Of a stretch of DNA of 64,000 nucleotides, positions 3,930 through 59,007 are shown in pieces. This stretch comes from Bacteroidetes bacterium GWF2_35_48 (lineage in GTDB: Bacteria; Bacteroidota; Bacteroidia; Bacteroidales; GWF2-35-48), in NCBI GenBank assembly GCA_001769125.1, contig MEOG01000100.1:1-64000 (forward strand), given 5' to 3'. The first letter of the stretch is position 1. The number at the start of each line of letters is the position of its first letter. The notes beneath the pieces were generated by a model. It was not told the DNA's origin and ran no database searches. It worked only from the letters and a program-made list of their open reading frames with translations. Both the position numbers and the translations under genes were made by a program.

Positions 3930-4010
3930 GTTTTTTTTACTGTTATTTACTGATGTTACGCAAAATGTTCTTATTATTCATTTGTTGGAAGCCGGAAGTT
4001 GCTTTGTTCA

Positions 4011-4121
4011 CAGTCTACAGTCTACAGTCTACAGTCTACAGTCATGCCGACTGCTGACTGCTGACTACTGACTGCTGACTACTGACTACCTGACTACTGA
4101 CTACCTGACTACCTGACTATT
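4011..4121. repeat. Heptanucleotide tandem array (CAGTCTA, then GACTGCT/GACTACT)
   Basis: Four exact CAGTCTA units (4011-4038) and a fifth degenerate one are followed, after a 3-nt break, by about ten GACTGCT/GACTACT units. Three of these are 8-nt GACTACCT variants. The period is 7 bp. The array sits upstream of the PASTA gene in a 700-bp gene-free region (3930-4625) that also holds the inverted repeat at 4276-4372 and the mobile-like element at 4443-4624. Confidence 0.9.
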
Positions 4122-14726: not shown

Positions 14727-15713
14727 ATGAAAAAAATTACATATATTCTTTACTTTTTATTAATAGCCGGTTCTGTAAAAGTAACTGCGCAAAGTGTTAC
14801 TTACAGAATAACAGATGATGATCCTTATGATATTAAGAATTTTTCTTTAGCTATTGATCCTTTGTTTTGCGATGTAAATGCCCAAAATACATTTTCCGCA
14901 GGTTGGGGATTACGTGCAGATTATTTATTTGGAAAAAGCTTGCAATTTAATTTTGATTTCCGTACCGCTTATGCTACTACAGGATATAATCCTGACAATG
15001 TAAATAACCGCAATTATTTCTATACGGAAGGTGGCCTCGGCATTGTTCTTTCACATAAAGAAAAAAGAAGAAATGTTGCGATTGTTTTAAGCAGTACCCA
15101 ATCTGGAAATACAAGAACAACTATTTCTATTGCGGGAGGAGTTCCTGCAACAATCAGAAGAATGATTATGTTCCATGGTGGAGTATATTCTATGACGAAT
15201 GCAATAAAATTTGCAAATCTTAGCGACAGCCTGACTTATTTTGAAGAAGGCTCTGATAAATTAATGTTAAAAGACACCGCTATAGCGAATCACACTTCAG
15301 GTTTAAAAGAAAATGGTTACGGAGGAATGGCTTCTCAGGCTATTTTTGCAGGATTTAACTTCAAAAGAATTGTTCAGCTTTATGTGGATGTAGATGGCTG
15401 GGGAACCCGCTCCAACAGAAGATATACTGACTTTTACATTGATGGCATTTTTTCTCCGGTTTTAACACTGAAAAACTTCACAACAAGTAGTAAAGAATAT
15501 AAAGTTTCGAGCAAAGACAAAAGGTTAATCGGCTGGAGAATGGGTTGGATTTACCGTGATCCTTACAATCAAGGAGTAAGTCTTCGATTTGAATTTGGTC
15601 AGCGTCCGGACTTTATGTTCGCTTCAAACACTAAAATGACAGGATTCTTCTGCATGTTCACATGGGGTATGTATATTCCGCTGAAGGTTGGAGGAATTTA
15701 TAATCCATCATAG
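14727..15713 (+). CDS. Predicted outer-membrane beta-barrel protein
   Basis: A 328-aa protein with a signal peptide ending in VTAQ (about residue 22) and a beta-rich, Gly/Tyr/Phe-rich body consistent with a barrel of about 12-14 strands. The family is not recognised. It is probably co-transcribed with the preceding barrel protein. A 7-bp tandem repeat and then a terminator-like hairpin follow. Confidence 0.68.
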   Translation: MKKITYILYFLLIAGSVKVTAQSVTYRITDDDPYDIKNFSLAIDPLFCDVNAQNTFSAGWGLRADYLFGKSLQFNFDFRTAYATTGYNPDNVNNRNYFYTEGGLGIVLSHKEKRRNVAIVLSSTQSGNTRTTISIAGGVPATIRRMIMFHGGVYSMTNAIKFANLSDSLTYFEEGSDKLMLKDTAIANHTSGLKENGYGGMASQAIFAGFNFKRIVQLYVDVDGWGTRSNRRYTDFYIDGIFSPVLTLKNFTTSSKEYKVSSKDKRLIGWRMGWIYRDPYNQGVSLRFEFGQRPDFMFASNTKMTGFFCMFTWGMYIPLKVGGIYNPS

Positions 15714-15720
15714 TATTAAT

Positions 15721-15755
15721 TAGGAATTAAGAATTAAGAATTAAGAATTAGGAAT
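15721..15755. repeat. Heptanucleotide tandem array (TAAGAAT / TAGGAAT)
   Basis: Five units with exact 7-bp period: TAGGAAT, three TAAGAAT, TAGGAAT. The array lies 7 nt after the stop of the barrel gene. Apart from this array and the terminators at 15811 and 16066, I see nothing in the 15714-16114 spacer. Confidence 0.85.
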
Positions 15756-15810
15756 TATTAATTTATAAAATTTAAAGCTTTTTATTCCTTGTTTTTTCTG
15801 AAATAATAAA

Positions 15811-19483: not shown

Positions 19484-19537
19484 GCAAACCTGTGAGGATA
19501 TCCCTGCACAAGCCCTTGTAATACCTCACAGGATTGC
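19484..19537. repeat. CCTGTGAGG hairpin element, copy 1
   Basis: Arms GCAAACCTGTGAGG (19484-19497) and CCTCACAGGATTGC (19524-19537) pair at 13 of 14 positions around a 26-nt loop. Same arms at 22551-22605 and 58502-58558. Confidence 0.88.
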
Positions 19538-22370: not shown

Positions 22371-22415
22371 GATTTTATATTACAAACTATTATTACGTAA
22401 TTTAATTCATTAATC

Positions 22416-22530
22416 GGATTAAGAATTAGGATTAAAGATTAAGGATTAAGGATTAAGGATTAAGGATTAAGGATTAAAAAGATACGGAAAAGTCCTTAAT
22501 CCTAAATCTTACTACTAAATCCTAAATCCA
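22416..22530. repeat. Heptanucleotide array in both orientations (GGATTAA / TAATCCT)
   Basis: About nine GGATTAA-type units with a 7-bp period (22416-22477) are followed by related units in the opposite orientation (22493-22530: TTAATCCTAAATC, then AAATCCT). The two halves can fold on each other. The array lies in the divergent spacer upstream of wbpE. With the hairpin element at 22551 and the promoter at 22690 it accounts for most of the 22371-22747 spacer. Confidence 0.88.
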
Positions 22531-22550
22531 AATGTTTCTCTCCTATCCTT

Positions 22551-30532: not shown

Positions 30533-30570
30533 TGGTTATATGTTTTTTTTAACTGTTGTTGAAGCCGGGA

Positions 30571-30673
30571 GTCAGAAGTTGGAAGTTGGAAGTTGGAAGT
30601 CAGAAGTCGATTCAGCTTCGAGCTTCGAGCTTCGAGCTTCCGACTTCGAACTTCGAGCTTCGGGCTTCGGGCT
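30571..30673. repeat. Heptanucleotide array (GTTGGAA / GTCAGAA, then GCTTCGA)
   Basis: GTCAGAA, three GTTGGAA, GTCAGAA, a 9-nt junction, then GCTTCGA x3, GCTTCCG, ACTTCGA x2, GCTTCGG x2: a strict 7-bp period with two unrelated unit families in one array. Confidence 0.9.
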
Positions 30674-30746
30674 TATTAATTAAAAAAATGCATAAAATAA
30701 GTTTTTTACCGTAACAATTTTGTAAATTGCTAAAAATTTAACCGCT

Positions 30747-56646: not shown

Positions 56647-58149
56647 CTACAGTCGCTTACCGCCTTTCCCACGAACCAGATACTCAACCAAATTTTCTTT
56701 CCACACAACGAATAAAATAAATATCAGCAACAACATGGTTCCAAAGCCAATGTTGAGCCAGAAATTTGTAGTACGCAGATATGCTGCTAAGAAGAAAAAG
56801 CCAACAGCAACGCCAATATAAATAAAAATAGTTTTTAAATCGTATTTGATTTTATAATACTTCTGACCCATAAAATAAGAAAGAATCATCATTAAAAAAT
56901 AGCAGATAAAATGTGTCCATGCCGCTCCCATGTAGCCGCCAAAGTAAGGGTTGTCAAGAGGAACAAGCAGTACATTTAAAAGAATCGTTATTACAGCGCC
57001 GAAAATTGCAATATACGCGCCGTATCTTGTATAGTTTGTTAGCTTATACCAGATAGATAAATTAATAATAATTCCAAGAAATAAATTTGCCATCAGAATT
57101 ATCGGAACAATTTTTATTCCCTCATGAAAACCGGCTCCGATGAAATGCTTGACAATATCTATATAAAACATTACGCCCATAAAAATCAGCAGACAAAAAA
57201 CAATAAAAAACTTCATCACATCGGCATACATTTTTTTTGCATCCTTAGATTTTGCTTCGGAAAAGAAAAAGGGTTCAGCAGCGTATCGGAACATTTGGAT
57301 AAACAAGGTCATCAGCACTGCAACTTTATAATTTGCGCCGTAAATTCCCAACTGGCTCATAACATTTGTATCCGGCGACAAGAGGCGTTTTAGCATTACC
57401 CTGTCTAATGCTTCATTTATCATCCCGGCAAGCCCGGCTACTAAAAGGGGTAAAGAATACCGCAACATTTTTTTCAACAGGGGCGAGTCGAATACCATTT
57501 TTATTTTCATCATCTCCGGAAGCAAAAGCAGGATTGTAAATACGCTGGCTATAAGATTTGAAATAAAAACATAGCCAACACCAATTTCAGGAGAATAAAT
57601 ATTCGATATAAAAGAATCGGGATTGTGTTTTAAAATCCACGGACACAACACAAGGAAAAATAAGTTCCCAAGAATATTAATTGAAATATTAAGAATTTTA
57701 TAAAAAGCAAATTTCCATGCTTTTCGCTTCTGCCTTAAACGAGCAAAGGGTATAGCCGTAAAGGCATCGGCAGCCATTATTATTCCGAACCATGTTATGT
57801 ATTCAGCATGATCAGAATAATTAATAAAGTCCGCGATTTGTCCTGAAAAAATACTTGTAATTAAAATAAAAAGAAACGATGATGATAAAAGAGCAATCAA
57901 AGATGTGCTGTATACGCGGTTTTCGTCTTTCTCGGTTTCAGAAAAACGGAAATAACCGGTCTCCATTCCGTAGGTAAGAACAATCATAATAAAGGTGGCA
58001 TAAGCATACAATTCAGTAATTACCCCAAATTGCTCTGTCGCAAAAACACGGGTATGAAGGGGAACCAGCAAGTAGTTCAGCAAACGACCAAGCATGGAGC
58101 TGAGTCCGTAGATTGCGGTTTGTCCTGCTAATGTTTTAAGCTTACCCAA
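56647..58149 (-). CDS. Polysaccharide flippase (Wzx / MOP family)
   Basis: A 500-aa inner-membrane protein with about 13-14 membrane segments. Its N-terminus (LAGQTAIYGLSSMLGRLLNYLLVPLHTRVF) is typical of Bacteroidota lipopolysaccharide/O-antigen flippases. It would move lipid-linked sugars to the periplasmic face for polysaccharide or glycoprotein assembly. No in-frame ATG precedes this conserved start; a TTG (58147-58149) is used in the call. The isolated position, away from glycosyltransferase clusters, leaves the substrate open. The spacer before it holds a tandem array. Confidence 0.9.
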   Translation of the reverse strand: MGKLKTLAGQTAIYGLSSMLGRLLNYLLVPLHTRVFATEQFGVITELYAYATFIMIVLTYGMETGYFRFSETEKDENRVYSTSLIALLSSSFLFILITSIFSGQIADFINYSDHAEYITWFGIIMAADAFTAIPFARLRQKRKAWKFAFYKILNISINILGNLFFLVLCPWILKHNPDSFISNIYSPEIGVGYVFISNLIASVFTILLLLPEMMKIKMVFDSPLLKKMLRYSLPLLVAGLAGMINEALDRVMLKRLLSPDTNVMSQLGIYGANYKVAVLMTLFIQMFRYAAEPFFFSEAKSKDAKKMYADVMKFFIVFCLLIFMGVMFYIDIVKHFIGAGFHEGIKIVPIILMANLFLGIIINLSIWYKLTNYTRYGAYIAIFGAVITILLNVLLVPLDNPYFGGYMGAAWTHFICYFLMMILSYFMGQKYYKIKYDLKTIFIYIGVAVGFFFLAAYLRTTNFWLNIGFGTMLLLIFILFVVWKENLVEYLVRGKGGKRL

Positions 58150-58221
58150 AATCAGATTTTTTATTACTGCAAAATTAGAAAAATGAATGACAGAAAAGAA
58201 TATAGGGGAAATTTAATTCAG

Positions 58222-58475
58222 TAGATGTACAATTGGGCTACGGTAGATGTTCGATAGATGTACGGTAGATGCACAATAGATGTTCGGTAGGGCAGCAATG
58301 GATGTTCAATAGGGCAACGGTAGATGTATGGTAGATGTACAATTGTTGATTCGATAGATATTCAATTGTGCAACGATAGATGTTCGGTAGATGTTCAATT
58401 GTATTCCTACCGAATTACTATTGTATTCCTATTGTATTTCTATCGAATTCCTATTGTATTCCTATTGTATTCCGA
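58222..58475. repeat. Degenerate tandem array with 11-bp period, about 23 units
   Basis: Units are 11 bp with one exception: a 12-bp unit at 58343-58354. Examples are TAGATGTTCGG, TAGATGTACAA, TAGGGCAACGG, TTGTATTCCTA and TCGAATTCCTA. Junctions between units are CGG-TAG, CGA-TAG, CAA-TAG or CAA-TTG in the left half and CTA-TTG, CTA-CCG or CTA-TCG in the right half; the right-half junctions are reverse complements of left-half ones. The array occupies the gap between the flippase and a GNAT gene. The only other thing I see in the 58150-58575 spacer is the hairpin element at 58502. Confidence 0.9.
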
Positions 58476-58501
58476 ATTTTTAATTTCTAATTTTATCTAC
58501 C

Positions 58502-58558
58502 GCAAACCTTTGAGGATAGCCTTCGCTCAAGCCTACCCGCAATACCTCACAGGATTGC
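58502..58558. repeat. CCTGTGAGG hairpin element, copy 3
   Basis: Arms GCAAACCTTTGAGG (58502-58515) and CCTCACAGGATTGC (58545-58558); one arm base differs from copies 1 and 2. The loop shares CTTCGCTCAAGCC-like text with copy 2. It lies 26 nt right of the 11-bp array. Confidence 0.87.
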
Positions 58559-58575
58559 TTTCCTTAATTCTTAAT

Positions 58576-59007
58576 TTACCCACCATACACCATTTTATAA
58601 TGTTTAATCCCAGCTTCCATAAACATATTTCCTTCAACAATAAAATTATTCTTCAAATAAAAATTCACAGCTTTTTCCTGAGCATGAAGATAAATAGCGC
58701 TTTTCAAAGGTTTTACATCTTTTAAAACAGCGTCAAGAATTACTTTTCCCACACCTGTATTTCTATAATCCGGCAATACGGCAAAGCGTTCTAATTTTAC
58801 TCCGGAATCCGTTTTTCTCCAACGTGCTGTTGCAATATATTTATCTATATTTTTTATCAAATAATGCAGTGCCTCATCATCTCCCTGATATTCTAATGCG
58901 GGATCAACACCTTGCTCGTTAATAAAAACCATCGTTCTTATTTTTCGAGCTTCGGTCAGCAGGTCGCCTGCATCATTGCTGTAAAAATTTATTACCTGAA
59001 ATTCCAT
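58576..59007 (-). CDS. GNAT-family N-acetyltransferase
   Basis: A 143-aa single-domain acetyltransferase of the ElaA-like shape. IRTMVFINEQGVDPALEYQGDD near the N-terminus and the acetyl-CoA motif LERFAVLPDYRNTGVGKVIL (about 72-91), then YLHAQEKAVNFYLKNNF. Substrate unknown. It may share a transcript with the flippase, although a 426-nt repeat-filled gap separates them. Confidence 0.88.
   Translation of the reverse strand: MEFQVINFYSNDAGDLLTEARKIRTMVFINEQGVDPALEYQGDDEALHYLIKNIDKYIATARWRKTDSGVKLERFAVLPDYRNTGVGKVILDAVLKDVKPLKSAIYLHAQEKAVNFYLKNNFIVEGNMFMEAGIKHYKMVYGG

Follow-up and report, generated by a model that had tools for sequence, protein, structure and literature searches.

Over-represented heptameric repeats have been described in bacteria (PMC4692102). 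The GGGAATC arrays of Xanthomonas and the GGGGA(C/T)T arrays of Nostoc are dispersed and intergenic; in Xanthomonas, neighboring arrays frequently converge as an inverted pair capable of a stem-loop, with 70 and 75 cases given in the excerpted text of that work (Rehm et al., 2015; PMC4692102). Arrays of the heptamer TAACTGA, according to the excerpt of the corresponding report, occur in Beggiatoaceae, Cyanobacteria and five Bacteroidetes (MacGregor, 2015; PMC4679880). REPs are defined, in the available part of a survey, as palindromes of 20–40 bp with a terminal tag (GTAG, CGTC), located mostly downstream of genes and partly linked to RAYT (Di Nocera et al., 2013; PMC3733652). No description of two-armed 11-bp arrays was found in the titles and abstract openings of the open-licence literature.

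As far as the excerpts of these reports go, the nearest precedent for the array family analyzed here is the inverted heptamer-array pairs of Xanthomonas. Like the arrays of Xanthomonas and Nostoc, the family is dispersed and intergenic and consists of short units with variable positions, and it shares the inverted pairing with Xanthomonas. The heptamer arrays have a period of 7 bp, are G-rich and have quadruplex potential, whereas the present family has a period of 11 bp, is A+T-rich and carries arm-specific linkers and a palindromic pivot (PMC4692102). The TAACTGA arrays are similar as intergenic short units that recur in phyla not related to one another; some Bacteroidetes have mixed heptamers. 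In their main genome, however, the excerpt describes direct repeats in forward orientation immediately before start codons, while the present arrays have inverted arms and indifferent contexts (PMC4679880). REPs are likewise dispersed, extragenic hairpin-forming families, some of them species-specific, but the arms of the present family are tandem arrays, no link to RAYT was found, and the contexts follow intergenic length (compared with the excerpted text of PMC3733652). No GTAG- or CGTC-tagged palindrome of 20–40 bp was found in the family; GTAG occurs only within the CGGTAG and CAGTAG hexamer variants and never as a terminal tag.

The array noted first lies in the window, the whole 64,000-nucleotide stretch of the Bacteroidetes bacterium GWF2_35_48 genome that was analyzed. 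Its self-identity over 58222-58475 reaches 0.588 for a lag of 11 and 0.629 for a lag of 22, while 1000 dinucleotide-preserving shuffles of the same positions gave a lag-11 mean of 0.271 (sd 0.028) and a maximum of 0.354. Tandem Repeats Finder reported periods of 11, 22, and 33 over parts of the array. The 11-bp register, the number of about 23 units and the single 1-bp slip given in an earlier note on this DNA were thus confirmed, the slip being one 12-bp unit. In register, the array comprises 16 left-arm units, one pivot unit and six right-arm units, each consisting of a hexamer and a 5-bp linker. This description, with CRRTAG or CTAYYG hexamers and CAATTG between them, is preferable to the "halves" of 5–6 bp that had been proposed earlier. 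The features are as follows:

58219..58472, plus strand (set with the CRRTAG arm first): entire two-armed 11-bp array, 23 units
58219..58395, plus strand: left arm, 16 units; hexamers mostly CRRTAG, also CAATTG, CAATGG and one TGGTAG; linkers such as ATGTT, ATGTA, and TGCAA
58340..58351, plus strand: 12-bp unit CAATTGTTGATT, the one-base slip of the earlier note
58396..58401, no strand assigned: pivot hexamer CAATTG, a palindrome at which the unit orientation flips
58402..58472, plus strand: pivot linker followed by the right arm of 6 units; CTAYYG hexamers; linkers TATTC, AATTA, TATTT, and AATTC

The array is flanked by two minus-strand ORFs (58576-59007 and 56647-58149). Mechanically called ORFs overlap it (58324-58725), but none is gene-like, in agreement with its earlier designation as non-coding. 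Its supposed difference from CRISPR is also borne out, since the 5-bp linkers come from a small recurrent set and unique spacers are absent. An element recognized by the motif CTATCCTCACAGG / CCTGTGAGGATAG (at most one mismatch) is dispersed in the genome; it occurs at window positions 19489 and 58507, one copy adjoining the array, and has 20 copies in 1.14 Mb of stretches from the same genome.

At least 54 loci of one array family are present in the 5.98-Mb genome. The original observation is correct and larger than had been supposed: the search for further 11-bp arrays with the same vocabulary, suggested in the earlier note, revealed many. The number of loci is a lower bound, composed of 51 arrays recognized as hexamer chains and three loci (C103:106498, C24:12928, and C105:220018) matched only by R1, a sequence-only model built from 27 cores. 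The hexamer chains formed 53 clusters in the fetched stretches, two of which were dropped: C19:14552, where the orientation signal was absent, and C105:90466, which is a 23-bp repeat. A search of the genome with the window array gave at least 69 matches (40 of 92 candidate regions scored), and R1 gave at least 179 matches at E values up to 0.01 (150 of 4648 candidates scored). No run of the family was found in an unbiased 200-kb sample of the same genome or in 479 kb of sequence belonging to other genomes in the order. The window-array search yielded no match in 59 relatives, one of them of the same genus, in phage records (E 1e-5) or in plasmids (E 1e-3). The family is best read as having been amplified in the host lineage.

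Folding, linker and covariation analyses were performed on the first 41 clusters, of which 39 could be split at the pivot and 30 gave cores (one of these, L044, misplaced); 27 cores entered R1. The same plan, comprising a CRRTAG left arm, a CAATTG-like pivot and a CTAYYG right arm, is common to 39 of these 41 clusters. The number of chained hexamers ranges from 5 to 53 among the 51 arrays. Units of 12 bp account for 50 of 405 parsed left-arm units of the 39 arrays, and pieces longer than 12 bp, containing a unit with an unrecognized hexamer, for about 23 of 405 left-arm and 8 of 227 right-arm pieces. Alignment of the 30 cores shows almost no variation at the outer positions of the hexamers, while two positions per hexamer vary, almost exclusively by transitions.

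Conservation of the hexamer core positions alongside variable linkers hints at constraint, although in the parse of 39 arrays it is partly built in by the pattern used to cut the units. Together with the occurrence of 11-bp phased sites at no fewer than 54 loci, it is what would be expected of a protein-binding array, in which the hexamer is read once per 11 bp, about one helical turn, in both orientations, as part of a nucleoid or regulatory scaffold. This explanation, rather unlikely in our assessment, is met below by the evidence from gene contexts and from arrays with a 7-bp period.

The two arms are related mainly through their hexamers. In the 39 arrays hexamers are 0.84 complementary between the arms, while the linkers are arm-specific, with a value of 0.32; the reverse-complement relation that the earlier note gave for the unit junctions of the two halves holds for the former and fails for the latter. 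The longest perfect inverted repeat between the arms is only 6–14 bp (median 9). Computational reversal of one arm weakened the predicted fold of the plus strand in 38 of 39 arrays, the mean changing from -56.8 to -21.9 kcal/mol, and that of the minus strand in 31 of 39. By this test the two arms face each other as in inverted pairs of the Xanthomonas type. For the window array, the predicted fold has -91.5 kcal/mol (z -6.3) on the plus strand and -57.3 kcal/mol (z -4.0) on the minus strand. The plus strand folds better than the minus strand in 34 of 39 arrays, partly via G-U pairs.

Such folds on both strands of the window array are consistent with a functional RNA hairpin, the array being transcribed, for instance within a 3' region or as antisense RNA, and its hairpin stabilizing or ending transcripts, an explanation that we nevertheless regard as unlikely. 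Permutation of unit order within the arms did not weaken the folds of the 39 arrays (mean z +0.29, negative in 13), and covariation was absent among 30 cores for the innermost hexamers (p 0.40) as well as for the second (p 0.87) and third (p 0.95) pairs. The absence of covariation and the irrelevance of unit order indicate that an exact RNA structure is not kept, and no Rfam family matched in the window at the gathering score. The linkers leave a weak signal: their pairing exceeds that of base-permuted linkers, with 0.517 versus 0.434 on the plus strand and 0.420 versus 0.369 on the minus strand. Taken with the strand asymmetry, it makes some selection on the folded strand possible. The permutation and covariation results imply that the two arms correspond mostly at the level of their unit populations and not pair by pair, as expected from separate homogenization of inverted arms.

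Gene contexts do not indicate a consistent relation to neighboring genes. With genes called as the longest ORFs rather than from annotation, and both sides called for 46 of 51 arrays, tandem, divergent, and convergent contexts number 28, 12, and 6, against an expectation by intergenic length of 29.5, 11.5, and 5.0 (p 0.85). Convergent gene pairs are therefore not enriched for arrays, which speaks against a terminator role and against a functional RNA hairpin. In tandem contexts 17 arrays are antisense and 11 sense, which is not significant (p 0.34); a smaller first set had seemed more biased, with 15 antisense and 7 sense. In most tandem contexts it is the antisense strand that folds best, again contrary to the RNA hairpin. 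The median distance between array and gene is 34 bp where the gene's 3' end faces the array (n 43) and 77 bp where its 5' end does (n 54; p 0.0001). The proximity to 3' ends would suit a transcribed hairpin, but intolerance of arrays in promoters and ribosome sites would lead to it as well, and protection of promoters alone would be sufficient.

Growth of arrays dependent on replication orientation, with the stable hairpin forming on the nascent lagging strand, was also considered. It is unsupported in this genome: over 51 arrays, the array strand holds a share of 0.51 (standard error 0.04) of the regional coding, the GC skew by array orientation is 0.006 (standard error 0.006), and neither reveals a link to orientation. 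The arrays in their own genome fill intergenic space according to its length, and the inconsistent relation to adjacent genes means that no regulatory role in the host is needed to account for them.

Other arrays of similar construction are present in the same genome. In 1.14 Mb of its sequence, picked mostly around 11-bp arrays so that the 11-bp count is inflated, intergenic arrays number 29 with a period of 7 bp, 30 with 11 bp and 15 with 22 or 23 bp, while periods of 8, 9, 10, and 12 bp are represented by 0, 1, 1, and 1 arrays, respectively. The 7-bp arrays resemble the 11-bp family in being intergenic and in that many have two facing arms with a shared core (for example, CAGTC versus GACTG) and differing 2-bp linkers. 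Unlike it, they have a period of 7, use several unrelated vocabularies and are in some cases single-armed. Among 33 arrays of 7 and 14 bp, some of which are neighbors with overlapping context, 20 have a fold z below -2 against shuffles. We infer that the 7-bp and 11-bp arrays form one class.

Four intergenic 7-bp arrays are located in the window itself (4006-4119, 15707-15780, 22412-22533, and 30559-30677). The first, third and fourth of these have facing arms, with fold z values of -4.8, -5.4, and -7.7, and a second test recognized inverted arms in 22412-22533 and 30559-30677 only. Arrays with longer periods of 21 and 25 bp, built from GGGGCGATGTTAC/GGGGCGATTTTAC units, occur elsewhere in the genome (G000:C122, L073 2166-2238 and 6003-6098).

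Foreign short-unit arrays, four of 7 bp and one of 8 bp, gave z values of -2.2, 0.9, 1.4, -0.9, and -0.3; only one of five passes -2, indicating that two arms are not universal. Since a 7-bp period keeps no single face of the helix, the similarly built sisters in the same genome provide the main argument against a protein-binding array, to which the absence of promoter preference in the contexts can be added. The proposal of the earlier note that the repeats place protein sites on one helix face is accordingly left unsupported by the 7-bp arrays and by the lack of any preference for promoters or particular gene arrangements.

Slippage or unequal exchange acts in these arrays. Identical units two positions apart are more frequent than in permuted arms, both on the left (57 of 327 pairs; permuted 33.7, sd 4.9) and on the right (51 of 189 pairs; permuted 31.0, sd 4.1). 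The excess does not extend to all lags; at lag 3 in the right arm there are 21 identical pairs of 154, against 26.1 after permutation. Identical units have a frequency of 0.056 within arrays and 0.033 between arrays, and long near-identical runs are present in arrays L018, L021, L042, and L045. The earlier note had argued against ordinary slippage on the grounds that it would produce more uniform units. The runs of identical units in sister arrays contradict this argument, as does the excess of identical units at lag 2.

Local homogenization, as well as the simple 11-mer arrays without an obvious left arm seen in other genomes, might suggest independent simple repeats that arose by slippage and decayed, with no shared element behind them. 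This is very improbable: the pivot, both arms and the 12-bp units recur at dozens of loci, from which it follows that the plan was inherited or copied, and random decay would not spare the hexamers.

The explanation that we favor, with a probability of roughly 0.55, is that the family is a dispersed intergenic element made of two tandem-repeat arms, amplified in the host lineage and grown by slippage within each arm, and that it can be explained without a regulatory role in the host. Both arms are tandem arrays with an 11-bp period, and, the arms being inverted, a single strand is predicted to fold back into a long hairpin. On either side of the CAATTG pivot, this would consist of hexamer helices interrupted once per 11 bp by linkers that pair poorly and differ between the arms. 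Each arm probably grows, shrinks and homogenizes separately, with hairpin-aided replication slippage as the most likely mechanism. Separate homogenization would account for the mosaic units, the arm-specific linkers, the absence of covariation and the shortness of the perfect palindromes. Long palindromes are subject to palindrome-cleaving repair (SbcCD), and short perfect palindromes may spare the element from it. So understood, the family has the look of genomic filler that expands by itself, and not of a switch controlling adjacent genes.

Mobilization of a palindromic element by a Y1 (RAYT/IS200-type) or other transposase, in the manner of REPs and MITEs, could explain the species-level dispersal of the family, and ten Y1_Tnp matches are present in the genome. 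None of the ten loci carries this array family, however, and the array ends fade and differ from locus to locus (judged by eye), so that we consider such mobilization quite improbable. The only run resembling an 11-bp array beside a Y1_Tnp gene proved to be a different, REP-like tandem of 23 bp, and mobilization by RAYT was rejected. The Y1_Tnp (RAYT-like) gene in question (L109 1324-2187; G000:C105, approximately 89.8-90.7 kb) is flanked by CCATCGGTGCAACCGATGG-type hairpins, expanded downstream of the gene to nine 23-bp tandem copies and constituting a separate family.

Simpler arrays of 11-bp units built on the CTAYYG/CRRTAG core are found sparsely outside this genome. A degenerate pattern of three right-arm units was found in 12 stretches of an 84,980-genome collection and in no viral contigs. 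The stretches belong to Indibacter, three Algoriphagus, a Cyclobacteriaceae MAG and MAGs labeled as Bacteroidetes (three stretches), Elusimicrobia, Deltaproteobacteria (two stretches) and Bacillota; the MAG labels may be wrong. Among 395 genomes of the phylum, 2 contained a two-unit pattern, as did 5 among 295 of the order (both counts include the present genome), with 0 for the backward control. In ten genomes from the three-unit list it gave one to nine matches each, the backward control never matching. Since the pattern itself selects the core, the foreign matches indicate that such arrays exist, not that other 11-bp arrays share the core.

R1 matched G675 (L150) with 49.6 bits over positions 9-76 of 77. 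Of 27 right arms in foreign genomes, 5, belonging to two genomes, have chained left hexamers on their upstream side, and none has them downstream; the two-armed plan is thus shown outside the own genome in few genomes. Another dispersed family was noticed in G473, which represents a different family of the same order: at four of its five loci (L153, L154, L156, and L157) a flank GAATTACARCYATTTATTT precedes short TATTTCTATTG arrays.

In tandem gene contexts 12 of 14 foreign arrays are antisense (p 0.013; longest-ORF calls), and the pooled foreign and own contexts are antisense in 29 of 42 cases (p 0.02). The foreign bias, which also counts in favor of a functional RNA hairpin, is the strongest hint that something connects the arrays with transcription or replication, and it would not be expected of neutral filler. 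Arrays antisense between tandem genes are seen in the foreign contigs L053, L150, L064, and L057 (1612-1662), and on L053 a stretch of 5 kb contains four array places, one behind each gene.

A wider reading, conceivable but doubtful, is that the 11-bp CTAYYG/CRRTAG core and its 7-bp sisters belong to a cross-phylum class of two-armed hairpin arrays. Such a class would spread and expand by a shared, undescribed process, for example hairpin-primed slippage favoring periods of 7 and 11, with differing linkers protecting the arrays from palindrome cleavage.

If the slippage-grown two-armed element is the right explanation, bacterial intergenic space can become filled with inverted tandem arrays, whose arm-specific linkers avoid perfect palindromes. 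It would offer a concrete route to asking why certain periods, here 7 and 11, dominate and whether hairpins drive the growth of repeats in bacteria. It would also allow one to ask if these arrays do no harm or if they influence rearrangement and antisense transcription.
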